Positions 567-11,682 of a stretch of 22,748 nt of DNA are shown piece by piece. The notes below the pieces were generated by a model. The model was not told where the DNA came from, made no database searches, and was given only the letters and a program-made list of their open reading frames with translations. The first letter of the stretch is position 1, and each line of letters begins with the position of its first letter. The stretch lies in the IMG/VR virus record IMGVR_UViG_3300046373_000015, positions 1 to 22,748 of that record; one strand, given 5' to 3'. Position numbers and translations under genes: made by a program. The stretch is from a virus.

Positions 567-586
567 AACGCTGAGAAGCGCAGGAG
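567..586 (+). promoter_or_regulatory. Leader hairpin plus Shine-Dalgarno before small terminase
   Basis: AACGCT-GAGA-AGCGC forms a 4-bp stem (569-572 with 577-580) closed by a GNRA-type tetraloop. It runs directly into AGGAG (582-586), 6 bases before the ATG at 593. It belongs to the repeated hairpin family seen before other head genes. The 3' part GCGCAGGAG is identical to that of the copy at 2212-2220. Confidence 0.5.
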
Positions 587-592
587 AAGTTA

Positions 593-901
593 ATGGAAAC
601 AGCAGAAAACAGCGGGAAAGCAGCAAAAGGCAAGCCGCGCGGCAAACCATTCGCAAAAGGCGTCACAGGTAACCCAGGAGGCCGCCCAGCGCGCACGCCG
701 GAGGAGCTTGACCTGATCCAAGCATGCAAGGAAAAAACGCCTCAGGCGCTTGCTGTGCTTGTCCGCATCATGGAGAGCGGCGAGAAAGAGCGCGACCAGA
801 TCACCGCCGCCAACATGATCATCGAGCGTGCGCACGGCAAGCCCGTCCAGCCGACAGACAACAACCACAGCGGCGCCGTAACGTTCGGATGGCTGGACTA
901 A
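593..901 (+). CDS. Candidate terminase small subunit (DUF5681-like)
   Basis: The 102-residue protein has a basic, Gly/Lys-rich N-terminus with the signature KGVTGNPGGRPARTPEEL at about residues 22-39. This is typical of the DUF5681 family, often encoded directly before large terminases. A helical segment (about 37-80) follows. The gene overlaps the large-terminase start by 13 bases. Small terminases recognise the packaging site and load the genome onto the motor. The assignment rests on position and the N-terminal signature; no classic small-terminase HTH is evident, and the upstream HTH protein is a rival candidate for DNA recognition. Confidence 0.65.
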   Translation: METAENSGKAAKGKPRGKPFAKGVTGNPGGRPARTPEELDLIQACKEKTPQALAVLVRIMESGEKERDQITAANMIIERAHGKPVQPTDNNHSGAVTFGWLD

Positions 902-2190
902 TCCGCATCCAGTACAAGCCGCGCGGCGCTTTCCTCGACTTGCATCGCAGGAAGCAGCGCTGGGCTGTGGTCGTCGCTCACCGCAGGGCAGGGAAGACTG
1001 TCGCCTGCATCAACGACCTTATCAAGGCCGCGCTCACGTTTCACCGCTCTGACGGGCGGTTTGCCTACGTGGCGCCCTTCTATTCCCAGGCTAAAGCTGT
1101 GGCATGGGACTACCTCAAACAGTTCAGTAGTGCTATCCCGGGGATTGAGATAAATGAGAGCGAACTTCGCATTGATTATCCGAATGGTTGCCGCATTCGC
1201 TTGTTCGGAGCTGACAACGCTAATGCTCTGCGCGGCTTGTTCTTTGACGGGATTGTTGCTGACGAGTATGGAGATTGGAAGCCCAGCGTTTGGAGTTACG
1301 TTATTCGTCCTGCCTTGGCTGATCGCGGAGGTTGGGCCATCATTATTGGCACGCCTAAAGGCCGCAATCAATTCTGGCAAGTCTACGAAGCGGCCAAGCT
1401 GAACGACAAATGGCTGTGCCTGACTATTAAGGCGAGCGAGTCGGGCTTGCTGCCTGCGTCCGAGCTGGCGGAACTGCAAAGCGAGCTGACCGAGGATGCA
1501 TGGCGCCAGGAGATGGAATGCGACTTTGACGCTGCTCTGCCTGGCGCGATCTATGGCAAGGAGCTGTGGCTAGCCGAGCAGCAAGGGCGCGTCAAGCCCG
1601 ACTTGTACGACCCCGAGCTGCCCGTGCATGCCGTCATGGACTTGGGTTTCAGCGATGACACGGCAATCTTCTGGTTCCAGGTCGGTAAAGAGCTGCGAAT
1701 CATTGACTGCTATGCAACAAATGGCATGCCGATCTCGCATTACAACGACGTTCTACGCGCGAAACCGTACAAATACGGTCAATGGCTGTGGCTTCCACAC
1801 GACGCCCGTGCCAAGAGTTTGCAGACCGGCCGCAGCATTGAGCAGCAGTTCACCAGCCTTGGATGGAAGCCGCGCATTGTGCCCGAGTTGGGCTTGGTTG
1901 ACGGAATCCAGGCTGCGCGCCTGACACTTGCAGAAATTTTCATCGATTCTTCTTGCGTTGACGGCTTAGATGCTCTCAAACAATATCAAAGAGAGTATGA
2001 TGAGGATAAGAAATGCTTTCGCGACAAGCCGCGCCACGATTGGACTAGCCATTACGCTGACGCGTTCCGGTATGCCTGCCTAGTCTGGCGTGAAGAATAC
2101 AAGCCGAAGGAAGAGGCGGCGCCAAGATGGCCGCATCAGCGAACGATCAACGAAATAATCGCCCGGCAGGGGCGAAGCAGGCAAGAGTAG
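889..2190 (+). CDS. Terminase large subunit (packaging ATPase/nuclease)
   Basis: This 433-residue protein drives genome packaging into the prohead and cuts the DNA. A Walker A-like loop HRRAGKT lies at residues 31-37, Walker B GIVADE at 121-126, and the coupling motif IIIGTPKG at 151-158. The C-terminal RNase H-like nuclease shows VMDLGFSDDTA at about 249-259 and DWTSHYADAFRYA at 384-396, with Asp251 and Asp391 as likely metal ligands. I chose ATG 889 because the longer frame from 724 adds only Arg/His/Gln-rich sequence shadowing the small subunit. The start overlaps that gene, so the two are probably translationally coupled. Confidence 0.95.
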   Translation: MAGLIRIQYKPRGAFLDLHRRKQRWAVVVAHRRAGKTVACINDLIKAALTFHRSDGRFAYVAPFYSQAKAVAWDYLKQFSSAIPGIEINESELRIDYPNGCRIRLFGADNANALRGLFFDGIVADEYGDWKPSVWSYVIRPALADRGGWAIIIGTPKGRNQFWQVYEAAKLNDKWLCLTIKASESGLLPASELAELQSELTEDAWRQEMECDFDAALPGAIYGKELWLAEQQGRVKPDLYDPELPVHAVMDLGFSDDTAIFWFQVGKELRIIDCYATNGMPISHYNDVLRAKPYKYGQWLWLPHDARAKSLQTGRSIEQQFTSLGWKPRIVPELGLVDGIQAARLTLAEIFIDSSCVDGLDALKQYQREYDEDKKCFRDKPRHDWTSHYADAFRYACLVWREEYKPKEEAAPRWPHQRTINEIIARQGRSRQE

Positions 2191-2196
2191 CCAAAT

Positions 2197-2220
2197 TCTT
2201 AACGCCGTGAGGCGCAGGAG
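2197..2220 (+). promoter_or_regulatory. Leader hairpin plus Shine-Dalgarno before the 79-aa gene
   Basis: TCTTAACGCCGTGA (2197-2210) continues into GGCGCAGGAG. CGCC (2203-2206) pairs with GGCG (2211-2214) across a GTGA tetraloop, and AGGAG (2216-2220) is 5 bases before ATG 2226. The 14-base 5' half recurs exactly at 2478-2491, so this copy and the next flank the small gene as direct repeats. Confidence 0.55.
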
Positions 2221-2225
2221 CATAT

Positions 2226-2465
2226 ATGCAGCAGACCGTCATGACTTACGGCAGCTTTCAGCCCGTAACGCCGAGCGACAGCACCCTCATCAATTGCCGC
2301 GCCATCTGTGTAGGTGGTGCCGGAAACCTCACCATCAGCAAGGACGCAACCAGCACAGGCGTGCTGTTCACAGTCATTGCCGGCCAGACCATCCCCATCA
2401 TGCTTGAACAAGGCCGAATCATGGCTACAGGCACGACCGCGACTCTTATGGTGGCCCTGGCCTAA
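2226..2465 (+). CDS. Small beta-rich phage structural protein, function unknown
   Basis: The 79-residue product has alternating Thr/Val/Ile/Gly stretches, with no predicted helix bundle, signal peptide or cysteine motif beyond two Cys (near residues 24 and 28). The C-terminal part, with MLEQGRIMATGTTATLMVALA-like chemistry, suggests a compact beta domain. It sits between large terminase and portal, a slot where several podoviruses carry a tiny unassigned virion protein. A good Shine-Dalgarno AGGAG precedes the ATG. It is flanked by the 14-base direct repeat that forms the leader hairpins, so it may be an exchangeable cassette. I cannot assign a function. Confidence 0.7.
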   Translation: MQQTVMTYGSFQPVTPSDSTLINCRAICVGGAGNLTISKDATSTGVLFTVIAGQTIPIMLEQGRIMATGTTATLMVALA

Positions 2466-2477
2466 ACCGATTCGAAC

Positions 2478-2498
2478 TCTTAACGCCGTGACGGCGCT
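2478..2498 (+). promoter_or_regulatory. Leader hairpin before the portal gene
   Basis: AACGCCGTGACGGCGCT (2482-2498) folds as CGCCG-TGA-CGGCG (or CGCC with a five-base loop) and ends 8 bases before ATG 2505. The same 17 bases occur at 8730-8746. Here no clear Shine-Dalgarno follows (CTGGACAA only), so the hairpin itself or its spacing may matter for initiation. Confidence 0.55.
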
Positions 2499-2504
2499 GG
2501 ACAA

Positions 2505-4976
2505 ATGAACGACTCAACCGCGAATAGCCTTGAGCGACCGCAGGACATCGGGACAAGCCCCGAAGCCGTAGCGCGCCGCTGGAAGCTCGAATTGAAGCTG
2601 GCCGACAAGCGCGAAAGCACCTGGCGCAAGAAAGCGGCCGAGATTTACAAAAAATACACGCCGGAATCGCCGGAAACGAACTCGTTCAATATCCTGTGGA
2701 CGAACACCGAGACGCTGCGGCAATCGGTCTACAACTCTCTTCCCCAGCCTGACGTACGGCGCCGCTATCAGGACGAAGACCCACTCGGCAAGGCTGTTAG
2801 CGAAGTGCTGACACGCGCCCTGGAGTTCGCGCAGGACACCTACGATTTCGACGCTGTGCTGCAAGATGATGTGCTGTGCATGCTGCTGGCCGGCAGAACT
2901 GTCTCCCGCGTGCGCTACGTGCCGGATATCCACAGCGAGCCAGGCGAAGCCAAAGAGGGCGGCGCGTCTGAGCCATACGAGTCAATCGCCTGGGAACAGG
3001 TCATCTGCGAGCGTGTGCAATACGATGATTTCCGCATCCTTGGGCCTGCCAAGTGCTGGAACGATGTGCCGGCCATCGCTTTCCGCCATCGGATGACGCG
3101 CGATGATTGTATCGAGAAGTTCGGCGAAGAAATCGGCAAAGCGATCACCCTGGACGCAGCCGACGACGAGGACATCAAAAACGATACCTCTGCCGACTTG
3201 TTCAAGACTGCCGAGATTTGGGAGATTTGGGACAAGGACAGCAAGCGCGTTATCTGGATTTGTAAAACCTACGCGCACCCATGTAAGGAGCAGGACGACC
3301 CATTGCAAATGTCGGGCTTCTTCCCCATTCCCCGCCCTCTATACGCTATCCAGAACGACCAGACGCTGATTCCGGCCTGCCTGTTCACGCAGTACGAGCA
3401 GCAGGCTAAGGAACTGAACAAGATCAGCATGCGCATCAACAAGCTGATCGACGCGCTGAGGGTTCGCGGCATCTATGACGCCACACTAGGCGAAATGGCG
3501 CAGTTGATGAAGGCGGCGGACAACGAACTGATCCCGGGCCAGAACATCACGGCGCTGCTGGAGCGCGGCGGCTTGGAAAAAGCTATCTGGATGATGCCGA
3601 TCGATGTCGCCGCGGCTGTGCTGAAAGAGCTGTATGTCCAGCGCGACGCCACGAAACAGGTCATCTACGAGATCACCGGCATCAGCGACATCATGCGCTC
3701 CGCAAGCGATCCGAACGAGACCTTCGGTGCCCAAAAAATCAAGACGCAATGGGGTACGCAACGTCTCCAGCGCATGCAAAAGGAAGTTCAGCGGTATATC
3801 CGCGATCTCGTGCGCCTCAAAGCCGAGGTCATCAGCGAGAAGTTCCAGATCGAGACGCTGGAGCAGATGACGCTGGTTCAATTGCCGCACCAGGCGCAGG
3901 TAGACGCGCAAATGCAGCAGATGCAGGCGCAATACCAGCAAGCCGCTCAAATGGCTCAGCAGCAGGGTCAGCAGCCGCCCCCGCCGCCTCAAATGCCGCC
4001 TGCACCGATCACCTGGGAAGCCGTCTCTGAGGCAATGCGTGGCGACGCCACCCGCACCTATCACGTTGATATCGAGACGGACAGCACGCTCTTGGCCACG
4101 CAAGACAGCGATATGGACGGGCTGACGAAGCTGCTGGGCGGCCTGTCGCAGCTAATTACCGGCTTTGGCCCGGCTGTGCAGGCCGGCGCAATCCCAATTG
4201 AGGCAGTCAAGGCGCTCATGGGCGTCGTGGTTCGCCGCGCCAAGATGGGAACGGCTGTAGAGGACGCGCTGGAGAAGATGCAGGCGCCGGCACCGGGCGC
4301 AGACCCCGAGGCAGCGAAGGCTCAAGCAGCCGCACAGCAGCAGCAGGCCCAGCAGCAGCACGAAGTCCAGTTAGAGCAGATGAAGGCGCAGACGACCGCG
4401 CAACTGGAGCAGATGAAAGCCAGCATTTCCGATCAGCAGCATCAGCGGGAGCTGGCCGCGAAGGTGCAGGCCGATCAGATGGCCGCTGAACAGTCCATGG
4501 CAATCGAGCAGCACAAGCAGCAGATGCAAGACGCCCAAGTGCAGCGCCAAAACGAAATGGAGGCTCAACGTGCAGCCCAGCAATCCGAGCTTGAACATGC
4601 GCGGGAAGTCCAGCGCATGCAAATGGAAGACGCCGCCAACCAGCGTCAGCAGGATTTGGACCGCTGGAAAGCTGAACTTGACGCGTCCACCAAGATTACC
4701 GTTGCCGAGATCGCCGCTAAAGCCTCCGCAGATGCCGCCTTGGCAGGCGCCGAGCAAGCCGCCAACGGCAAGGTTGCCGAGGACATCGCGCCCGATACCA
4801 GCGTAGCCGATGCGCTCAAGGCCATCAGCGAGAAGGTGGATGCGCTGCACCAGCACTCCGCATCACCCCGAACCATCGTCCGAGGACCGGACGGCAAGGC
4901 TACCGGCATTTCTGTCGGAGGCGTCACTAAAACCGTAACCCGCGACCCTGATGGGCGCGCAACAGGAGTCCAATAA
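2505..4976 (+). CDS. Portal protein (P22 portal family)
   Basis: This 823-residue protein forms the dodecameric ring at the head vertex through which DNA enters and leaves. The core up to about residue 480 fits the P22-type portal family, including a segment around 385-415 (TKQVIYEITGISDIM, then NETFGAQKIKTQWG). It is longer than P22 gp1 (725 residues). The extra length is C-terminal: a polyproline linker near 491-502, then a very Gln/Ala/Met-rich coiled coil about 600-735, probably a barrel-like extension into the capsid. Near the end RGPDGKATG and RDPDGRATG form a small duplicated turn. The stop overlaps the next start (TAATG). Confidence 0.92.
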   Translation: MNDSTANSLERPQDIGTSPEAVARRWKLELKLADKRESTWRKKAAEIYKKYTPESPETNSFNILWTNTETLRQSVYNSLPQPDVRRRYQDEDPLGKAVSEVLTRALEFAQDTYDFDAVLQDDVLCMLLAGRTVSRVRYVPDIHSEPGEAKEGGASEPYESIAWEQVICERVQYDDFRILGPAKCWNDVPAIAFRHRMTRDDCIEKFGEEIGKAITLDAADDEDIKNDTSADLFKTAEIWEIWDKDSKRVIWICKTYAHPCKEQDDPLQMSGFFPIPRPLYAIQNDQTLIPACLFTQYEQQAKELNKISMRINKLIDALRVRGIYDATLGEMAQLMKAADNELIPGQNITALLERGGLEKAIWMMPIDVAAAVLKELYVQRDATKQVIYEITGISDIMRSASDPNETFGAQKIKTQWGTQRLQRMQKEVQRYIRDLVRLKAEVISEKFQIETLEQMTLVQLPHQAQVDAQMQQMQAQYQQAAQMAQQQGQQPPPPPQMPPAPITWEAVSEAMRGDATRTYHVDIETDSTLLATQDSDMDGLTKLLGGLSQLITGFGPAVQAGAIPIEAVKALMGVVVRRAKMGTAVEDALEKMQAPAPGADPEAAKAQAAAQQQQAQQQHEVQLEQMKAQTTAQLEQMKASISDQQHQRELAAKVQADQMAAEQSMAIEQHKQQMQDAQVQRQNEMEAQRAAQQSELEHAREVQRMQMEDAANQRQQDLDRWKAELDASTKITVAEIAAKASADAALAGAEQAANGKVAEDIAPDTSVADALKAISEKVDALHQHSASPRTIVRGPDGKATGISVGGVTKTVTRDPDGRATGVQ

Positions 4977-5434
4977 TGGCCGCAGGCGCATTTACCTTCC
5001 CCGACAAGGCGAAGCTCAACTTTTTCAGTGCAACCGATCTGCTGAACCCGGCAAACTCGTTCAAGATCACGCTGCACACCAGTTCTTTCACCCCGGCGCC
5101 TTCCACCATGGAAGTCTACGCAGACCTGACCAATGAGCTAGCAACGGCAAACGGGTACACCAACGGTGGCCTTGCGCTTACCAGCATTGCCCTGACTCAG
5201 ACATCCGGAGTAGTTAAGTTTACAAGCGCTGCTGCTGTGTGGACCGCATCAGGTGGATCGATTCCGGCATGGCGCTACGGCGTGGTGCGCGCGGTCGGCA
5301 CCTTGAACGGCAAGGTTGACCCAATCGTAGGCTACTTCCTGGGCGATGCGACACCCGCCGACGTGCCGGCTACGACCTCTGGCAACACCCTCACGGTGAC
5401 GCCGAATGCATCTGGTATCTTGAGCGCGACGTAA
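4976..5434 (+). CDS. Beta-rich accessory head/virion protein, uncharacterised
   Basis: The 152-residue product opens with AGAFTFPDKAKLNFF and continues as Thr/Val/Ala/Gly-rich beta-type sequence without Cys, signal peptide or membrane segment. It resembles small virion proteins of the head module in composition only; I do not recognise a named family with certainty. AGGAG at 4964-4968 lies inside the portal end, and the ATG overlaps the portal stop, so the two are made from one message. It begins a run of eight closely packed genes between portal and scaffold. Confidence 0.75.
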   Translation: MAAGAFTFPDKAKLNFFSATDLLNPANSFKITLHTSSFTPAPSTMEVYADLTNELATANGYTNGGLALTSIALTQTSGVVKFTSAAAVWTASGGSIPAWRYGVVRAVGTLNGKVDPIVGYFLGDATPADVPATTSGNTLTVTPNASGILSAT

Positions 5435-5874
5435 TGACGCCCGCACAACTCCAAACGCTTAAGGCTGCGATCCTGGCTGATGCGACAGCCGGGCCGCTGG
5501 CAGCAGCGAACAATCACATCGCAATTGCGGCGTACCTAAACCAGGCCGGCAGCGGACTGGTCTACCGCCCCGCCATCCCTAGCTGGGAGATGAACACGAG
5601 CATCGTTTGGACTGAGTACGCAGTTCTAACTGCGCTGCAACAGAACTGCTATCAGGCCATGATCTCGCCCGGCACCGTGGATGCGACGAGTGCCAACATT
5701 CGCGCTGGGCTGGCGGCGATCTTCGGCGCTGCTGCCACGACTAAAGCCAATCTGACGGCGCTGATTTCGAGAATCCAGACCAAAGGCGAATCGGTATTCA
5801 CGAGTGCTAACGTCTGCCCGCTGTTTGGGATCATCTTCACCGCCAACGACGTGGCGCAAGCCCTGGGAAGCTAA
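5434..5874 (+). CDS. Conserved phage protein of the portal-scaffold interval
   Basis: The 146-residue helical protein starts MTPAQLQTLKAAILAD and has ISPGTVDATSANIRAGLAAIFG-like and NDVAQALGS segments. This pattern recurs in an uncharacterised phage protein family I recognise by its N-terminal 'MTPAQL-TLK' opening and its partition into three helical blocks. The start overlaps the preceding stop (TAATG) with only a weak upstream purine run, so translation is probably coupled. No enzymatic motif is visible. A structural or assembly role is inferred from context. Confidence 0.75.
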   Translation: MTPAQLQTLKAAILADATAGPLAAANNHIAIAAYLNQAGSGLVYRPAIPSWEMNTSIVWTEYAVLTALQQNCYQAMISPGTVDATSANIRAGLAAIFGAAATTKANLTALISRIQTKGESVFTSANVCPLFGIIFTANDVAQALGS

Positions 5875-5877
5875 ATC

Positions 5878-6237
5878 ATGACCGCGACAAAATCACTTTC
5901 TACCATTATCGCCGCGGGTACAAGCAACGCGGCGGCTGGCACGACCACGGGAACCGCAGTTGACCTGACCACGAAATACGGCGCCTTCATCACCGGCCTG
6001 CTGACCAATGGCGGCACCGGCCCGACTGTTGCCCCGACCGCTTATGTGGAAGTCTCAGGAGACAATACGAACTGGAAGCAGGCTTTTGCGGTCGGAGGCG
6101 ACACGACCGCCAGCAGCGTGACGCCGTTCAGCTACGATGTGCCCGCAGGTGTAATGTACGCCCGCGTGCGCGTGACCGGCAACACGGGGCAGGCAGTAAC
6201 GTGCGAGGCGTTTGCGCAGGTCCTGGCGACGATTTAA
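5878..6237 (+). CDS. Small beta-sandwich-like virion protein
   Basis: This 119-residue protein has a Thr/Ala/Gly-rich N-terminus, then strands such as AYVEVSGDNTNWKQAF and FSYDVPAGVMYARVRVTGN with the TGNTGQAVTCEAF ending. That is the pattern of a discoidin/carbohydrate-module-like beta sandwich seen in minor phage virion proteins. A GGGAAG stretch precedes the ATG. It stands directly before the LamG-like gene, so the two may act together on the virion surface. The role is inferred only. Confidence 0.72.
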   Translation: MTATKSLSTIIAAGTSNAAAGTTTGTAVDLTTKYGAFITGLLTNGGTGPTVAPTAYVEVSGDNTNWKQAFAVGGDTTASSVTPFSYDVPAGVMYARVRVTGNTGQAVTCEAFAQVLATI

Positions 6238-6240
6238 GCG

Positions 6241-7713
6241 ATGCGCTATAACCAGCCGCAAAGCGGGCCATTCCAGCCTGATCTAAATGGCGAACTGTTG
6301 GCGGGCGGCAAACTGCTGGCGTTGATTATCGGTTCTGGATACAGCCATAATCTCGCTGACGGCGAGCCCCTCGTAAAAAACGGGACATTGCAGCGCACTG
6401 CCATTTCTCAAGGCTTGAGCGTATTTAACCCGCTTGGCGGCGGCGATCTCTCAGCAAACATCGACGCAGCAGGCGGCAGTATCGTCGTGGATTTCTGGTG
6501 CGGCCGGTTCGACCTTGGCAGCCCTGCCAATCCCTATCTATTCGGCGATTACGACGGCACCAACGGCACCGGGCTTGCGGCGCGCCATCCAAGCATCGGC
6601 AATCGATGGGGATATTTTGAAGGCGCTTTGAACGATAGCGGCGAAACGCTGGTCGATGGAACGTACTATACCTTTGTCGTTGTACGTGACACGATTGCCG
6701 GCACGGCCAAGATTTATCGTGATGGCGTCTATAAATTTACCTCAGCAGGCGCGCCTGTGTTCCAAGGTAAATTTGCCGTTGGGTCGATCGGGCAAAATCA
6801 GTATTCCAGCTTTGGCGCAGAAACAATGACGGTGCTTGCGGGCCGCATCCGTTTCAAGGCCTGGGATGCCAGAATGGTGGCGTCGTTCACGCGCAACCCA
6901 TGGCAGTTGTTCCAGTCACCCCAGCGGCGCATCTTTTCAGCGGCGACAGGAGGTACAGATACGCCAGTTAATCCATCTGTGGGTGCACTCGCGCTGAGCG
7001 GCTACAGCCCAAGCATCGCACAGACCGCCAATCAAGCATTAACCCCTAATTCTGGCACCCTGACATTTACGGGGTATGCGCCAGCGATTACGCAGCCTCA
7101 AAGCGTGACGCCTGCCCAAGGATCGCTTTTTATCACCGGCTATGCGCCCTCAATTACACAGGGCGTGACCACGACCATTGCTCCGGGAGCTGGCACGTTA
7201 GCCATTACGGGCTACGCCCCGGCCATCGCTCAGTCGGCAAATAATTTAGTCTTTCCGCCAACAGGGACGCTTACCCTCACTGGCTACGCACCAGCGCTGG
7301 CGCAGACTACCAATCAGGCCATTACTCCAGCGCAAGGCGCCATCGCAATTACCGGGTACGCGCCCACAGTAGCGCAGGCTGCCGCCTCGCCCAGTCTTAC
7401 GCCCGATCCCGGCTTGCTCCAGATTGTTGGCTACGCCCCAAGCGTCACCCAAAGCGCTCCAGTCACCAAGATCGGCGGCGACGACGTTCCCCGCCACGAG
7501 GACGAAGAGCGCATCGAGATTTGGGAGCCGCGTAAGCCGCAGCCCAAGCGCGATGACTCGCTCGACAAGGTTGTGCGCGAGGCCTATGCCAAGGCCACCG
7601 GAAAGCCAATCGCAGCAACAATCGCCAAGCCTGGGCCATCTGTGCGCGCGCCCGACCCTGAACCATTCGACTATGAAGAGGACGATTTCGAAGTCCTCCT
7701 CCTTTCCTACTGA
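6241..7713 (+). CDS. LamG/concanavalin-like protein with seven GYAP repeats
   Basis: The protein has 490 residues in three parts. Residues 1-235 look like a LamG/concanavalin A-type jelly roll (VDGTYYTFVVVRD, AKIYRDGVYKFTS), ending in ARMVASFTRNPWQLFQSPQRR. The closing NPWQLF signature is common in phage LamG-type proteins. Residues 243-404 hold seven tandem repeats of 22-25 residues, each ending GYAPxIxQ. Residues 411-490 form a charged tail (PRHEDEERIEIWEPRKPQPKR). Such a protein could decorate the capsid or bind a glycan on the host surface. The location in the head module favours decoration over a tail fibre. Spacing to the previous stop is 3 bases with a poor Shine-Dalgarno. Confidence 0.8.
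   Translation: MRYNQPQSGPFQPDLNGELLAGGKLLALIIGSGYSHNLADGEPLVKNGTLQRTAISQGLSVFNPLGGGDLSANIDAAGGSIVVDFWCGRFDLGSPANPYLFGDYDGTNGTGLAARHPSIGNRWGYFEGALNDSGETLVDGTYYTFVVVRDTIAGTAKIYRDGVYKFTSAGAPVFQGKFAVGSIGQNQYSSFGAETMTVLAGRIRFKAWDARMVASFTRNPWQLFQSPQRRIFSAATGGTDTPVNPSVGALALSGYSPSIAQTANQALTPNSGTLTFTGYAPAITQPQSVTPAQGSLFITGYAPSITQGVTTTIAPGAGTLAITGYAPAIAQSANNLVFPPTGTLTLTGYAPALAQTTNQAITPAQGAIAITGYAPTVAQAAASPSLTPDPGLLQIVGYAPSVTQSAPVTKIGGDDVPRHEDEERIEIWEPRKPQPKRDDSLDKVVREAYAKATGKPIAATIAKPGPSVRAPDPEPFDYEEDDFEVLLLSY
6967..7452 (+). repeat. Seven in-frame tandem repeats (GYAP-type, about 72 bp)
   Basis: The units encode a short beta-hairpin-like block ending GYSPSIAQ (254-261), GYAPAITQ (278), GYAPSITQ (300), GYAPAIAQ (324), GYAPALAQ (348), GYAPTVAQ (372) and GYAPSVTQ (397). 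Spacing is 24, 22, 24, 24, 24 and 25 residues. Protein identity exceeds DNA identity because codon choices differ, so the array is old and maintained by selection rather than a fresh slippage tract. Confidence 0.85.
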
Positions 7714-7720
7714 GGACGCC

Positions 7721-8113
7721 ATGCCTGTCTATCAAGCCGTCTGCACTGCCTGCGACTCATACCACGAGTATATCCGCCCGGCCTCGCGCTGCCTTGAGAC
7801 GCCCGAGTGTTGCGGCACCGCCACGGAAAAGCGCATTTTCAGCGCACCTGCCATGCGTGCTGACATCGCGCCATGGGATGCGTACGAATCCCCCGCGACC
7901 GGCAAGATGATCACAAGCTACGCAGAGCGCCGCGCCGATATGAAGGCTGCCGGTTGCCGCGACTGGGAAGGGCAAGCCGTGGAGCGCCGCGAAGCCGCGA
8001 AGAGCAAGGCCGCTGACGAAGCGAAGCTGGACGCCTCAATCGATGCCACCGTGCGGCAGGCATGGGCAAATCTACCCCCAAGCAAAAAAGCCGCCGCCCT
8101 GGCGCAAACCTAA
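7721..8113 (+). CDS. FmdB-like zinc-ribbon phage protein
   Basis: The protein has 130 residues. The N-terminus MPVYQAVCTACDSYHEYI with CxxC at residues 8-11 and a second Cys group C-x(4)-CCG about 25 residues later matches the FmdB-type single zinc ribbon seen in small regulatory and phage proteins. The rest is Ala/Lys/Glu-rich helix (about 70-130). ATG 7721 follows GAGGAC in the overlap region, 7 bases after the previous stop. Upstream in-frame codons are a shadow of the LamG gene. Zinc binding is likely from the motif, but the role in head assembly is unknown. Confidence 0.72.
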   Translation: MPVYQAVCTACDSYHEYIRPASRCLETPECCGTATEKRIFSAPAMRADIAPWDAYESPATGKMITSYAERRADMKAAGCRDWEGQAVERREAAKSKAADEAKLDASIDATVRQAWANLPPSKKAAALAQT

Positions 8114-8125
8114 AGGAGCAACACC

Positions 8126-8341
8126 ATGGCTTTCACCGAAGCACAGCTCGTCGCCCAACTCGACCCAGCATCGACCGGGCTGACCATCAAAATTCAGAGC
8201 CTGATTCCAGGCCCGACCATTACGGACGTGTACGCCGTGGGCGAAGTGGCGCCGTACGCCGGCCGTAGCCGCTGGGTACAGGTTCAATCGAGCAACACCG
8301 CGGCACAGGCCGCAGCAGCAATTCAAACCGCACTCGCATAG
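8126..8341 (+). CDS. Small hypothetical phage protein (71 aa)
   Basis: The product begins MAFTEAQLVAQLDPASTGL and ends in an Ala-rich helix (SSNTAAQAAAAIQTALA), with a beta-type centre ITDVYAVGEVAPYAGRSRW. A strong Shine-Dalgarno AAGGAG (8113-8118) lies 7 bases before the ATG and overlaps the previous stop, indicating efficient expression in the same operon. No family is recognised and no membrane segment is seen. Confidence 0.7.
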   Translation: MAFTEAQLVAQLDPASTGLTIKIQSLIPGPTITDVYAVGEVAPYAGRSRWVQVQSSNTAAQAAAAIQTALA

Positions 8342-8350
8342 GAGAAATGT

Positions 8351-8518
8351 ATGGATATGGACTTCGCAAAAGCACTATCGGTCGCCATTGCCAAGGCAAA
8401 CGGCCATCCCGACCCAGAAGCATGGGCCGCAAACGTCGCAGGACATTTGGAGCCTGCGCCCGCCGAACCCACTTCCGCCGATCCGGCCCCAGCCGAACCA
8501 GAGCAGCCCGCACCATGA
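8351..8518 (+). CDS. Mini-protein with GHPDPEAW motif, paralogue A
   Basis: The 55-residue frame starts MDMDFAKALSVAIAKANGHPDP and ends in a Pro/Glu/Ala-rich tail (PAEPTSADPAPAEPEQPAP). GGAG at 8341-8344 is 6 bases from ATG 8351, which fits better than the out-of-frame ATG at 8347. It shares the pattern GHPxPxxWAxxxAxxxxP with the next gene, so the two are a likely duplicated pair. The stop overlaps the next start (ATGA). No function is known. Confidence 0.65.
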   Translation: MDMDFAKALSVAIAKANGHPDPEAWAANVAGHLEPAPAEPTSADPAPAEPEQPAP

Positions 8519-8691
8519 AAATCGACCATGAAGCGGTTCGCCAGATAGCCCAACGGGTGGCGGCGTTTCATGGTCACCCGAATCCGGATCGGTGGGCGCT
8601 TGTCATTGCCGACAAGTTCCGGCCGCAAACAGTGCAAATAGAAAATATTCCTGCTGAAAATACATTACAGCCGGAAATACCTGCCGTATAA
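8515..8691 (+). CDS. Mini-protein with GHPNPDRW motif, paralogue B
   Basis: This 58-residue helical protein starts MKIDHEAVRQIAQRVAAFHGH and carries NPDRWALVIADKFRP, aligning with the preceding 55-residue protein. The last third, from about residue 40, is AT-rich and includes the probable promoter of the scaffold-capsid operon: the stop codon TAA is part of the TATAAT box. ATG 8515 is chosen because the longer frame from 8347 adds an Arg-rich shadow of paralogue A. Confidence 0.65.
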   Translation: MKIDHEAVRQIAQRVAAFHGHPNPDRWALVIADKFRPQTVQIENIPAENTLQPEIPAV

Positions 8692-8692
8692 T
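8664..8692 (+). promoter_or_regulatory. Probable sigma70-type promoter for scaffold-capsid genes
   Basis: A perfect TATAAT (8687-8692) lies 17 bases after ATTACA (8664-8669, four of six matches to TTGACA). The predicted start, around 8699-8700, coincides with the first base of an inverted repeat, so the message would begin with a hairpin. It is the best -10 box seen in the window and stands before the genes needed in greatest amount. Confidence 0.5.
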
Positions 8693-8700
8693 TGTGCAAC

Positions 8701-8718
8701 GATACTCCTGGGAGTATC
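8701..8718 (+). promoter_or_regulatory. Perfect inverted repeat at the predicted 5' end of the capsid-operon message
   Basis: GATACTCCTGGGAGTATC is an 18-base perfect palindrome, folding as GATACTC-CTGG-GAGTATC in RNA. No T-tract follows, so it is not a standard terminator. It lies just downstream of the TATAAT box, so it could be a 5' stabilising stem or, as DNA, a dimeric operator. Confidence 0.55.
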
Positions 8719-8729
8719 CGACCACTATA

Positions 8730-8746
8730 AACGCCGTGACGGCGCT
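8730..8746 (+). promoter_or_regulatory. Leader hairpin before the scaffold gene
   Basis: AACGCCGTGACGGCGCT is identical to 2482-2498 before the portal. The CGCCG arm (8732-8736) pairs with CGGCG (8740-8744). It is the second stem in the leader, 41 bases before the preferred scaffold start at 8786. Confidence 0.6.
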
Positions 8747-8785
8747 AGTGACTGATGCGAATCGGTCAAAGACATGGAGCTGCAA

Positions 8786-9844
8786 ATGCAACTCGAAGAC
8801 CAAGGGGCTACCCCCGACGTTGAGAATCAACAGGCTGCGCCGTCGATGGAAGACACCATCCGCGACACGTACCGCAATCTGACCTCCGCCGAAGAAACCA
8901 CCGCTGCCGCGCCTGAAAATGGCCCGGCGGCTGGTGGCGTTGAAGACCCCGAAGCAGCTGCGCAGCGCATCCGTGACGCCCAAGGCAAGTTTGCCGCGAA
9001 GGCGCCGGAAGATTCCGCCCCGCCTGTTGCCGAGGCCGCACCAACCGATGCGCCTATTGAGCAAGTTAAGCCAGCCCCGAACACCTGGAAGAAGGAGGCC
9101 GCTGAAAAGTGGGCGACCGTCGATCCTGTCGTGCGCGCCGAGATCGAGCGCCGCGAGCAGGACTTCCACAAGGGCGTCGAGCAGTACAAAGAGCGTGCAG
9201 CCTTCGCTCAGTCCATGGAGCGGGCGATGGCCCCCTTCATGCAGACCATTCAGCAATTGGGCGTGCCGCCCGACCGCGCCATTGGCGAGTTGATGGCGGC
9301 CGACCACAAGCTGCGCTATGGCTCCGCCCAAGAGAAGACCACATTCTTTGCGCAACTGGCGCAAAACTACGGCGTCGATATCGGCCAGGCCGCGCATCTT
9401 CACCAGAACACCGACCCCAGCGTATTTGCAGCCCAAAACGAGGCCCAGCAACTGCGCGCCCAACTACAGAATTATCAACAGACGGCTCAGCAGCAAGCAG
9501 AGAGTGCGCTCAACAGCGAAATCGATGCCTTCAAAGCAGACCCGTCACATAGCCATTTCGAGACGGTTCGAGGCCATATGTCCGCGCTTCTACAAGCCGG
9601 CCAAGCCAAAGACCTCGCGGATGCCTATGAGCAGGCCATCTACGCCAATCCCACTACGCGGGCCGCTGTTCTACAGCAGCAGGAAGCCGCGAAGCGCGAG
9701 GAAGCAGCGAAGAAGGCGCAAGCGGCAAAAGCCGCGGCAAGCATCAACGTGCAACGCCGCCCAGCCATGCCAACAGCCCAGCCCATAGGTTCTATGGACG
9801 ACACCATTCGCGAGACTCTGCGCCGATTGCAGGGTAACGCCTAA
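8786..9844 (+). CDS. Capsid scaffolding protein
   Basis: This 352-residue acidic, Ala/Gln/Glu-rich, helical protein lies directly before the major capsid gene, the classic scaffold position. It would template prohead assembly and then leave. The motif SMEDTIRDTYRNL occurs near residues 20-32 and SMDDTIRETLRRL at the C-terminus; the terminal helix is probably the capsid-binding element. The centre has long coiled-coil stretches (for example QQLRAQLQNYQQTAQQQAES) and a basic Ala/Lys segment before the end. I prefer ATG 8786 because GGAG at 8776-8779 gives a 6-base spacer; ATG 8774 (four residues longer) lacks one. Confidence 0.85.
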   Translation: MQLEDQGATPDVENQQAAPSMEDTIRDTYRNLTSAEETTAAAPENGPAAGGVEDPEAAAQRIRDAQGKFAAKAPEDSAPPVAEAAPTDAPIEQVKPAPNTWKKEAAEKWATVDPVVRAEIERREQDFHKGVEQYKERAAFAQSMERAMAPFMQTIQQLGVPPDRAIGELMAADHKLRYGSAQEKTTFFAQLAQNYGVDIGQAAHLHQNTDPSVFAAQNEAQQLRAQLQNYQQTAQQQAESALNSEIDAFKADPSHSHFETVRGHMSALLQAGQAKDLADAYEQAIYANPTTRAAVLQQQEAAKREEAAKKAQAAKAAASINVQRRPAMPTAQPIGSMDDTIRETLRRLQGNA

Positions 9845-9854
9845 ATTTTAGGAG
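9836..9854 (+). promoter_or_regulatory. Hairpin covering the capsid Shine-Dalgarno
   Basis: CCTAA (9840-9844) can pair with TTAGG (9848-9852) across ATT. The right arm contains AGG of the capsid Shine-Dalgarno AGGAG (9850-9854), and the left arm contains the scaffold stop codon. The block is preceded by AACG as in the other leader hairpins. The stem is short and AU-containing, so masking would be partial. Confidence 0.45.
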
Positions 9855-9861
9855 CATCACA

Positions 9862-10857
9862 ATGCCATCCCCAGGACAAGGTTACGCCGCTGGTAACTTC
9901 GGCGTTTTTTCGGAGCTGGTCACCACCACGTTCCGCAACCACTCGAAAGAAGTGGCCGACAACATCACCAAGCACAACGCGCTGTATCGCAAGTTGACCG
10001 ATGGCGGCAAAGTTCGCCTCGAAGACGGCGGCCTATCGATTGTGCAGCCGCTGGAATATGCTAACAACACCACGTATCAGCGCTACTCGGGCTATGACGT
10101 ACTGAACATCGCCGCTGTCGATGTGCTGTCCGCCGCAGAATTCCCATGGCGCCAAGTGGCCGTCAACCTGGCCGTCTCCGGCCTGGAGATGCGTACCAAC
10201 TCGGGCGAGAACCGCATCATCAACTTCGTGAAATCGAAGGTGAAGAATGCTCAGCACTCGTTTGCCAACGGCCTGTCGGCTGACCTGTACAGCGACGGCA
10301 CCGCCGCCAACCAGATCAACGGCCTGCAAGCCCTGATTGCGGATGCCGGCACCGGCACCATCGGCGGCATCAACAGCTCGACCTATGCCTTCTGGCAGAA
10401 CGTCGTGCAATCGGCTGCGGCGCCCCTGCAAGGCGGCTCTGCCATCACCCCATCGGCAACCACCATCGAATCGCTGATGCTGCCGATGTGGATCAAGCTG
10501 ACCCGCGGCATGGATATGCCAAACCTGATCGTGATGTCGGACGACTACTTCACGTTCTACGAGCAGTCGCAGACCTCGCTGAAACGCTACACCTCCAGCG
10601 AAGACGGCAAGGGTGGCATGATCGGCATGAAGTACAAGACTGCCGATGTGTTCTTCGATTCCTCGGGCGGCATCCCAGCGGCCCACGCCTACTTCCTGAA
10701 CACGAACTATCTGGATCTGGTCGTGCACAAGGACGCCAACATCACCATGTTGGACGACGTTGAGTCGATCAACCAGGACGCCCTGGTGAAAACGATCATC
10801 TGGCAGGGCAACCTGGCAGTTGCCAACCGCTCGCTGCAAGGCGTGATGAAAGCGTAA
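9862..10857 (+). CDS. Major capsid protein
   Basis: This 331-residue protein forms the icosahedral shell. It follows the scaffold gene directly and has the look of a phage major capsid of the HK97-fold superfamily. The N-terminal region reads FSELVTTTFRNHSKEVADNITKHNAL; QHSFANGLSADLYSDGTA and NGLQALIADAGTG follow; the C-terminal part includes DNLIV-type strands (MDMPNLIVMSDDYFTFYEQ). Codon use is strongly biased to C-ending codons, unlike the flanking accessory genes, in keeping with very high expression. AGGAG lies 7 bases before the ATG. A hairpin terminator follows within 10 bases of the stop. The assignment rests on position plus overall sequence pattern. Confidence 0.92.
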   Translation: MPSPGQGYAAGNFGVFSELVTTTFRNHSKEVADNITKHNALYRKLTDGGKVRLEDGGLSIVQPLEYANNTTYQRYSGYDVLNIAAVDVLSAAEFPWRQVAVNLAVSGLEMRTNSGENRIINFVKSKVKNAQHSFANGLSADLYSDGTAANQINGLQALIADAGTGTIGGINSSTYAFWQNVVQSAAAPLQGGSAITPSATTIESLMLPMWIKLTRGMDMPNLIVMSDDYFTFYEQSQTSLKRYTSSEDGKGGMIGMKYKTADVFFDSSGGIPAAHAYFLNTNYLDLVVHKDANITMLDDVESINQDALVKTIIWQGNLAVANRSLQGVMKA

Positions 10858-10863
10858 CCCGGT

Positions 10864-10890
10864 GGCCGGCCCAGTGCCGGCCTTCGTTCT
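10864..10890 (+). terminator. Intrinsic-type terminator after the capsid gene
   Basis: GGCCGGC (10864-10870) and GCCGGCC (10876-10882) form a 7-bp GC stem with a CCAGT loop, followed by TTCGTTCT. The T-tract is broken, so termination is probably partial. That would lower decoration-protein mRNA relative to capsid. Confidence 0.6.
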
Positions 10891-10897
10891 ACCGCAT

Positions 10898-10917
10898 AAC
10901 GCCCTAAAGGGCAGAGG
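10898..10917 (+). promoter_or_regulatory. Leader hairpin before the decoration gene
   Basis: AACGCCCTAAAGGGC: GCCC (10901-10904) pairs with GGGC (10909-10912) across TAAA. It is followed by AGAGG (10913-10917), 8 bases before ATG 10926. It keeps the AACGCC start of the family though the loop differs. Confidence 0.45.
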
Positions 10918-10925
10918 AAAATAGA

Positions 10926-11648
10926 ATGCCTTACTCGCAAATTACCCCAGTGATCGGCCTGCCCCAACAGGGCTACGTCAACAGCGTCGATCTCGTCCAG
11001 AAGAATATCCTGGGCACCACCGTCATGGCCGTGGATAACTACTTCGGCTTCGGTGAGTTCAAATACGTCCAGTTCCCGGCCGGCGCCGCCATCACCCAAG
11101 GCCAAGTGGTTACGTGGTCGGGCTTCGGTGGCTCGGCAGGCTACTCCGCAGCAGTCGCTGCCAACACTGCCAACACCGGGCGCCCCATCGGTATCGCGAT
11201 CAACTCGGTCGCTAACTTGGCGGTCACCCAGTACGGATGGATCCAGATCAGCGGCCAAGCAGTTATCAAGGCTGTCGCTTCGGTTGCTGCCGGCTCGGCC
11301 TTTGGTATCGACGCGACGACCGGCGGCTCGGTCAACGCCAACAGCGCCGGTCGTCAAGTGCTGAACGCTGTCGTATCGGCTGCTTCGACCCTGACCGTCG
11401 TCAAGACCGCGCAGCTTACCAACGGTTCGCCCGTCATCACCGTCTCCGACACTGCCGGCTGGGTTCCTGGCTTGACGGCTTCCGGTACTGGTGTGTCGGG
11501 CACGGTGCTGTCGGTCGATCCTGATAACCGCCGCGTCACGCTGTCGGCCAATGCCACCACGGGCGGCGCCAGCTCCGTGACGATGACCTACACCGGCTTT
11601 ATCGTGGCGACCATCGACCGCAGCTTCCTGCAAGGCGCGATCACCTAA
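10926..11648 (+). CDS. Capsid decoration/cement-type protein with inserted beta-module
   Basis: The protein has 240 residues. Residues 1-153 and 224-240 look like one beta domain (QGQVVTWSGFG, RPIGIAINSVANLAVTQYGWIQISG, then GFIVATIDRSFLQG), the pattern of capsid-stabilising jelly-roll proteins encoded right after the major capsid in podoviruses. Between them, about 154-223 is a Gly/Thr/Ser-rich module (TAQLTNGSPVITVSDTAGW, then VTLSANATTGGASSVTMTY) of a type found in many unrelated phage proteins. I read it as an insertion into a surface loop. The gene has its own leader hairpin and AGAGG, and a strong terminator follows. High C-ending codon use matches the capsid gene. Confidence 0.8.
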   Translation: MPYSQITPVIGLPQQGYVNSVDLVQKNILGTTVMAVDNYFGFGEFKYVQFPAGAAITQGQVVTWSGFGGSAGYSAAVAANTANTGRPIGIAINSVANLAVTQYGWIQISGQAVIKAVASVAAGSAFGIDATTGGSVNANSAGRQVLNAVVSAASTLTVVKTAQLTNGSPVITVSDTAGWVPGLTASGTGVSGTVLSVDPDNRRVTLSANATTGGASSVTMTYTGFIVATIDRSFLQGAIT

Positions 11649-11657
11649 TCGCAAGCG

Positions 11658-11682
11658 GCGTCCTCGAAAGAGGGCGCTTTTC
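11658..11682 (+). terminator. Intrinsic terminator after the decoration gene
   Basis: GCGTCCTC (11658-11665) pairs over 8 positions, including one G-U, with GAGGGCGC (11670-11677) across a GAAA tetraloop, followed by TTTTC. This is the clearest rho-independent terminator in the window and closes the scaffold-capsid-decoration unit. Confidence 0.75.

Follow-up and report, generated by a model that had tools for sequence, protein, structure and literature searches.

Late genes and leader hairpins of the window

The window analysed here comprises the 22,748 bases of the IMG/VR virus record IMGVR_UViG_3300046373_000015. Its late genes are those of a podovirus-like phage, and the nearest named relative found by capsid protein is the metagenomic phage MW202489 (62% identity). 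Four genes of the window are preceded by copies of a small hairpin, hereafter the element, of the form AA-(4 base pairs)-GNGA(Y)-(4 base pairs)-C-N-GGAG, with the ATG usually lying 11-15 bases from the stem. The hairpins and the mechanically called genes of the region are as follows.

567..586, + strand: small terminase hairpin; AA 567-568, stem CGCT 569-572 / AGCG 577-580, GAGA loop 573-576; on the 3' side C581, Shine-Dalgarno AGGAG 582-586 and ATG 593
2201..2220, + strand: hairpin of the 79-amino-acid (79-aa) protein; stem CGCC 2203-2206 / GGCG 2211-2214, GTGA loop 2207-2210; on the 3' side C2215, AGGAG 2216-2220 and ATG 2226
2482..2501, + strand: portal hairpin; stem CGCC 2484-2487 / GGCG 2493-2496, GTGAC loop 2488-2492, or alternatively 5 base pairs with a TGA loop; on the 3' side C2497, TGGA 2498-2501 and ATG 2505
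8725..8748, + strand: scaffold hairpin 1; inner stem 8732-8735 / 8741-8744, GTGAC loop 8736-8740; possible outer stem CTA 8725-8727 / TAG 8746-8748
593-901: small terminase
ATG 889: start of the large terminase
2226-2465: 79-aa protein
2505-4976: portal
8774-9844: scaffold (open reading frame)
9862-10857: major capsid
10926-11648: decoration (deco), with tail genes beyond

A covariance model of the element, R1, was built from 77 sites that included the copies at 567, 2201 and 2482, the copy at 8730 being left out; its E-values are rough owing to a short calibration. Scanning the window with R1 returned exactly four matches, at 567 (33.0 bits, E 3.9e-9), 2201 (39.9 bits, E 1.2e-11), 2482 (39.2 bits, E 2.1e-11) and 8730 (22.8 bits, E 1.8e-5, despite its absence from the training set), the next match having an E-value of 3.3. 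In leaders placed by tblastn, near relatives of the phage were found to retain the stems before the small terminase, 79-aa protein and portal genes. Small terminase leaders of relatives read CGCC-GGGA-GGCG, CGCC-GTGA-GGCG and CGCC-GAGA-GGCG where the window reads CGCT-GAGA-AGCG, indicating that stem changes are compensated and that the second base of the GNRA loop is free to vary. The equivalent of the 79-aa copy in L059 is CGCC-GCGAT-GGCG, the portal copy is retained ahead of the portal genes of L004, L005/L029, L008, L010 and L059, and scaffold hairpin 1 occurs at the equivalent place in L003, L004, L005, L008 and L010. More distant relatives (L016, L018, L037 and L038) retain the scaffold copy only. 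A covariance-model scan and a comparison of relatives were the checks proposed in the original prediction; the small terminase, 79-aa, portal and scaffold stems are kept in relatives, with a compensated stem change at the small terminase.

That prediction, made from the letters of the window, had listed six copies starting with AACGCY before six head-assembly genes. The four above stand, including the 17 identical bases said to be common to two copies, which are those at 2482 and 8730; the two at 9836 and 10898 were borne out neither by R1 nor by the relatives. At the supposed capsid copy (9836..9844, + strand), AACGCC consists of the final scaffold codons, followed by TAA. No R1 match was obtained there at E-values up to 10, and relatives whose capsid protein is 92-94% identical have ggcgcctaa, ggcgccgcataa or ggcgcttaa at this place, with no stem kept. 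The supposed decoration copy (10901..10912, + strand) reads GCCC-TAAA-GGGC, has a non-GNRA loop and no R1 match, and is a different hairpin. In the decoration leaders of the window, L003, L004, L006, L008, L009, L010, L015 and L037, a hairpin directly before the Shine-Dalgarno sequence is kept while its sequence and loop change completely among relatives, making it a second, unrelated leader hairpin. Terminator-like hairpins also lie 3' of the capsid (10866-10886) and decoration (11653-11682) genes of the window. The AACGCY hexamer alone is not enriched in the window (36 observed against 30.7 expected), so that the signal resides in the combination of stem, loop and Shine-Dalgarno sequence rather than in the hexamer.

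Occurrence and constraint of the element beyond the window

Across IMG/VR, the consensus pattern matched 93 stretches and a second variant 17, and a reversed control pattern gave 0 matches; the pattern sites precede start codons of virion genes unrelated to those of the window. The training patterns fixed most stem and loop bases, rendering the constancy of these bases partly a matter of construction, and scans in which the loop or the stem was left free are the fair tests. With the loop free, a scan of the whole collection found GNGA in 28 of 30 distinct sites, the ATG lying 5-9 bases past GGAG in nearly all; the fourth pair, also free in these 30 sites, was C-G in 15, T-A in 13, T-G in 2 and C-A in none. 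With the stem free, 25 carrier genomes or contigs yielded 49 AA-4bp-GNRA-4bp hairpins 8-16 bases before an open reading frame start; three classes of control loop gave 16, 6 and 9, and changed flanks gave 1-6. The stems recovered included the compensated CGTC/GACG, GGTC/GACC and TGCC/GGCA. Counting pairs over the 77 sites, all stem cells were paired, both-side changes were seen at 3 of 4 pairs, and covariation was 0.286 versus 0.139 in shuffled alignments. At E < 0.02, R1 gave about 58 matches in 852 kilobases (kb) of carrier-phage sequence, a count that includes the training sites; 750 kb of element-free relatives and named phages gave none, the best E-value there being 0.4. A fixed orientation, a fixed spacing from the Shine-Dalgarno sequence and ATG, compensated stems and a constrained GNGA loop thus lend good support to the earlier proposal of a common post-transcriptional element.

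Anatomy and spacing

In the aligned sites, of which the consensus is CTTAACGCCGNGAGGCGCTGGAG, the AA flank, the stem, the GNGA loop and the following C are nearly invariant, the constancy of AA and C being partly by construction as both were required in the search. The optional fifth loop base is a pyrimidine, and the unpaired C after the stem is immediately followed by the Shine-Dalgarno sequence. On the 5' side, a single-stranded tract of about 14 bases, depleted in G, leads to C-N-N-A-A ahead of the stem. An internal loop, CUUAAC/GCUGG, on the 5' side of the stem in all direct copies has the size of the 11-nucleotide tetraloop receptor, CCUAAG/UAUGG; self-association or pairing of tandem copies through the GNRA-type loop and the receptor-like internal loop is conceivable.

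The single-stranded, G-poor tract adjoining a stable stem on its 5' side favors a processing role, in which the late polycistronic mRNA would be cut within the tract (for instance by RNase E) and the hairpin would shield the 5' end thereby created on the downstream cistron. Consistent with this idea, 14 of 81 copies, against 37 of 644 control starts, lie directly after terminator-like T-run hairpins, and two tandem copies are present at some genes (in an Undibacterium prophage, L210 and L141, and also in G006, L126, L119 and L189). Protection would require a stem only, however, yet the GNGA loop, the AA flank and the distance to the Shine-Dalgarno sequence are all conserved, and we regard processing or stabilization as a rather unlikely account of the element.

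The fifth base before the stem, mostly C, can pair with the fourth base after it in 91% of sites compared to 78% in shuffles; from this pairing and the outer stems of scaffold-type copies, an outer helix touching the Shine-Dalgarno sequence appears to be at least partly real. This outer C-G pair, together with the predicted pairing of UUCUU with AGGAG in some copies such as that of the 79-aa protein, would be in keeping with concealment of the Shine-Dalgarno sequence by a riboswitch or RNA thermometer. The predicted probability of this sequence being unpaired is nevertheless 0.36 at element sites versus 0.41 at other starts of the same genomes (p 0.07), not clearly lower, arguing against a simple on/off occlusion. 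Moreover, copies of a CAAAA class are incapable of UUCUU/AGGAG pairing and no Rfam match was found, so that a thermometer or riboswitch is most improbable.

The upstream YCUUAA and the GNRA or pentaloop hairpin also recall antitermination. A UCUUAA boxA and a GNRA-like boxB hairpin would form a nut-like site at which an antiterminator is loaded repeatedly along the late operon, and both the terminators between late genes and the putative nin-region-like genes, named from sequence, in many carriers would suit such a system. Against it, the copies are bound to a Shine-Dalgarno sequence and an ATG at 11-15 bases, within the initiation region, and the CAAAA class is devoid of UCUUAA; we give antitermination little credence.

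The two-hairpin leader of scaffold genes

In scaffold leaders, a second hairpin sits between hairpin 1 and the Shine-Dalgarno sequence and is followed by GAC or GAT. The corresponding features of the window are given below.

8749..8768, + strand: scaffold hairpin 2; TGACTGAT-GCGA-ATCGGTCA, 8 base pairs, predicted fold
8771..8788, + strand: GAC, Shine-Dalgarno GGAG 8776-8779 and scaffold ATG 8786, from the scaffold-leader alignment
8687..8692, + strand: TATAAT-like box, a candidate promoter outside the hairpin, noted by eye; a similar box lies in a similar place in L004, L005 and L010

Hairpin 2 covaries in nine other scaffold leaders, aligned with the window's own left out: both-side changes occur at 5 of 7 pairs, and 0 of 500 shuffles scored as high. 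Although cobalamin-like in appearance, it gave no Rfam match as a riboswitch. Outer stems in scaffold-type copies of hairpin 1 read GCA/TGC, CCT/AGG, GCG/CGC or CTA/TAG. Because the ATG at 8774, which opens the longest reading frame, overlaps the Shine-Dalgarno sequence used by relatives, and because the relatives align as ...GACAGGAGTAGCAAATGCAACTCGAAGAC, the true scaffold start is probably, judging from this alignment, the ATG at 8786. With that start, the 41 bases originally given as the distance of the scaffold copy are correct.

Between the window and L206, the scaffold proteins show no significant similarity, and the two-hairpin leader therefore precedes at least two scaffold families without recognisable relationship. 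The presence of this elaborate version at scaffold genes suggests extra control there.

Between the TATAAT-like box and the scaffold hairpin of the window lies a perfect palindrome, GATACTCC-TG-GGAGTATC (8701-8718), the arms of which are retained in L003 with an altered centre. In relatives that lack the element (L013, L014, L007, L033, L019 and L034), the place immediately 5' of the scaffold Shine-Dalgarno sequence is instead taken by a hairpin that resembles a terminator and has a T-run (AGCACCTTTCGAGGTGCTTTTTTT and similar).

Genes and phages carrying the element

Twenty-nine gene families were found to lie 3' of element sites, and those matched by profiles are all virion or packaging families: terminase, portal, scaffold, tail tube, tail spike/pectate lyase, DNA ejection protein and several unrelated major capsid families (SU10 type, P22 type and phrog_212). 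The absence of the element from tail and lysis genes, as first described, holds in this window by R1; in other phages, tail-tube (PF18906) and tail-spike/pectate-lyase genes, as well as DNA-ejection genes, are preceded by it; the capsid and decoration genes of the present phage are themselves without it. The element is thus a late virion-gene element rather than the head-gene signal first proposed.

The carriers belong to at least five structurally different phage lineages. All-against-all gene comparison at E 1e-4 and 0.01 revealed no family common to all of them, a missing shared gene being weak evidence as some carrier contigs are incomplete, and the region of an Undibacterium prophage with the tail-tube gene has almost nothing in common with the other carriers. 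Recognition by one conserved phage protein, as had been envisaged, is accordingly unsupported.

A strict pattern run against 85,000 bacterial and archaeal species matched seven stretches. Three of these lie before phage genes, in Undibacterium rivi (now Cognatundibacterium), Undibacterium sp. TS12 and Massilia sp. PDC64; the remainder comprise one phage contig in a Devosia metagenome-assembled genome and three coding coincidences. The named isolates that were looked up are Oxalobacteraceae. In a sample of 393 genomes of the same family group, ten matched, six of them before phage genes (five at one decoration-like gene and one at a tail-tube gene), and the other four look like coding coincidences; among 300 Burkholderiales genomes, the Undibacterium one was the sole match. 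Applied to six host genomes, R1 gave matches at E < 0.1 in prophages only and none at host genes. Six pattern matches in Rhizobiales genomes were not ahead of any convincing start, and no significant match was found in the named phages of other hosts that were searched (Rhodoferax P26218, EBPR podovirus 1, Xanthomonas PBR31, Methylophilales Venkman, Bradyrhizobium ppBeUSDA76-2 and MW202489). The element is restricted to phages, convincing bacterial copies being seen only in prophages and phage contigs; the host range rests on few isolates, as most carriers are metagenome contigs.

Two further observations concern individual carriers. In G007, a contig of 52,221 bases (L238-L240), hairpin contexts repeat about 49,000 bases apart, at 1382/50382 and 2061/51061, and since these recurring contexts are identical, the contig probably has terminally repeated ends. 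The carrier phage L113 shows at 3488-3556 a weak match to an HDV-like (CPEB3) ribozyme (E 0.035; 24.1 bits, where the gathering score is 35).

A proposed role in translation initiation

The gap to the preceding gene is at least 23 bases in each of 57 element-bearing genes, by crude gene calls. The fixed distance of the hairpin within the initiation region and the lack of overlap with the preceding gene point to action at initiation. From the structure, orientation, spacing, target genes and phage restriction observed, we infer, with somewhat better than even confidence, that the element is an RNA signal acting in cis on late phage mRNAs, at translation initiation. It would mark cistrons that start translation on their own, and the hairpin would be recognised by its RNA shape, the reader being either the 30S subunit or an RNA-binding protein of the host. 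The identity of this putative reader is the less certain part, suggested by the carriage of the element by at least five unrelated lineages without a common gene and its absence from host genes. Several points weigh against this proposal: the shared-gene comparison would overlook a small phage protein that evolves fast or that incomplete contigs lack; the absence of the element from host genes would be odd for a host regulator; and the accessibility of the Shine-Dalgarno sequence is not clearly different from that of other starts and is unaffected by swapping the upstream sequence.

A more specific and decidedly tentative suggestion is that unrelated phages of hosts of one family independently adopted the GNGA-capped hairpin because it engages an Oxalobacteraceae host factor or 30S feature, which the host's own genes may not use through this signal.

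The anatomy beside the Shine-Dalgarno sequence is also that of an operator, and a phage-encoded RNA-binding protein might repress or activate the late genes together through it, in the manner of T4 gp43 or the MS2 coat protein. Conservation of loop and flanks with a free stem sequence, and the occurrence of the most elaborate form before scaffold genes, would agree with such an operator; the want of a gene family common to all carriers, and an Undibacterium tail-tube prophage region nearly unlike the others, speak against it and lead us to consider it unlikely, although with mRNA processing or protection it is one of the two main alternatives. A T7-like phage promoter was likewise deemed unlikely, given compensated stem changes, a GNRA-type loop and no fixed -10 box upstream.

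Were the element to act at initiation as we propose, a structured initiation signal in phages without a common gene family would mean that the phages of one host group share a late-gene regulatory RNA logic. The leader of about 30 bases offers a simple handle on late virion-gene expression in poorly studied Burkholderiales phages, and the element is usable as a metagenome marker for phages of these hosts.

Comparison with known systems

Rfam 15 gave no match up to E 5 in the window, L037 and L038, and the leaders of L113, L198, L211 and L016 likewise had no match, although very small hairpins score poorly in such searches; no description of the motif was found in the open-access literature. 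The element points to an undescribed RNA signal. CsrA/RsmA sites require ANGGA in a hairpin loop, whereas here the loop is GNGA and the GGA lies outside the stem. FourU and ROSE thermometers sequester the Shine-Dalgarno sequence, the predicted accessibility of which is here like that of control starts.

Hairpins of the lambda boxB/nut type have a stem of 4-5 base pairs and a GNRA or GNRA-like pentaloop. The element resembles them in its stem of 4-5 base pairs and GNRA(-like) loop; nut sites, however, are independent of start codons, whereas the element has a fixed spacing to the ATG and copies before many genes. The scaffold gene of P22 is autoregulated and under special post-transcriptional control. 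Here the scaffold genes carry the most elaborate leader, and the element is also found on many other genes.

The MS2 coat operator is a hairpin bound by a phage protein. Like this operator and that of T4 gene 43 (PMC3014915), which are small hairpins with a conserved loop beside the Shine-Dalgarno sequence, the element is a conserved-loop hairpin at the ribosome binding site, as a translational operator would be. Both of these operators are bound by phage proteins and are mostly autogenous, whereas many genes carry the present element and comparison of the carriers gave no common phage protein.

The closest known kind is that of the start-associated sequences (SAS/ESAS) of cluster K mycobacteriophages. 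These place a short repeat that includes the Shine-Dalgarno sequence (13 bases in SAS) immediately ahead of the start codons of some phage genes, which span many families; they are nearly absent from the host genome and have no assigned role (PMC3203893). The element is similarly a start-adjacent repeat with a Shine-Dalgarno sequence, its ATG lying mostly 11-15 bases past the stem with GGAG inside that interval. It does not match the SAS sequence GGGATAGGAGCCC, its consensus being CTTAACGCCGNGAGGCGCTGGAG. Finally, SAS are without supported RNA pairing and are confined to non-structural genes of one phage cluster, whereas the present element is a conserved hairpin with compensatory changes that precedes virion and packaging genes in several unrelated lineages.

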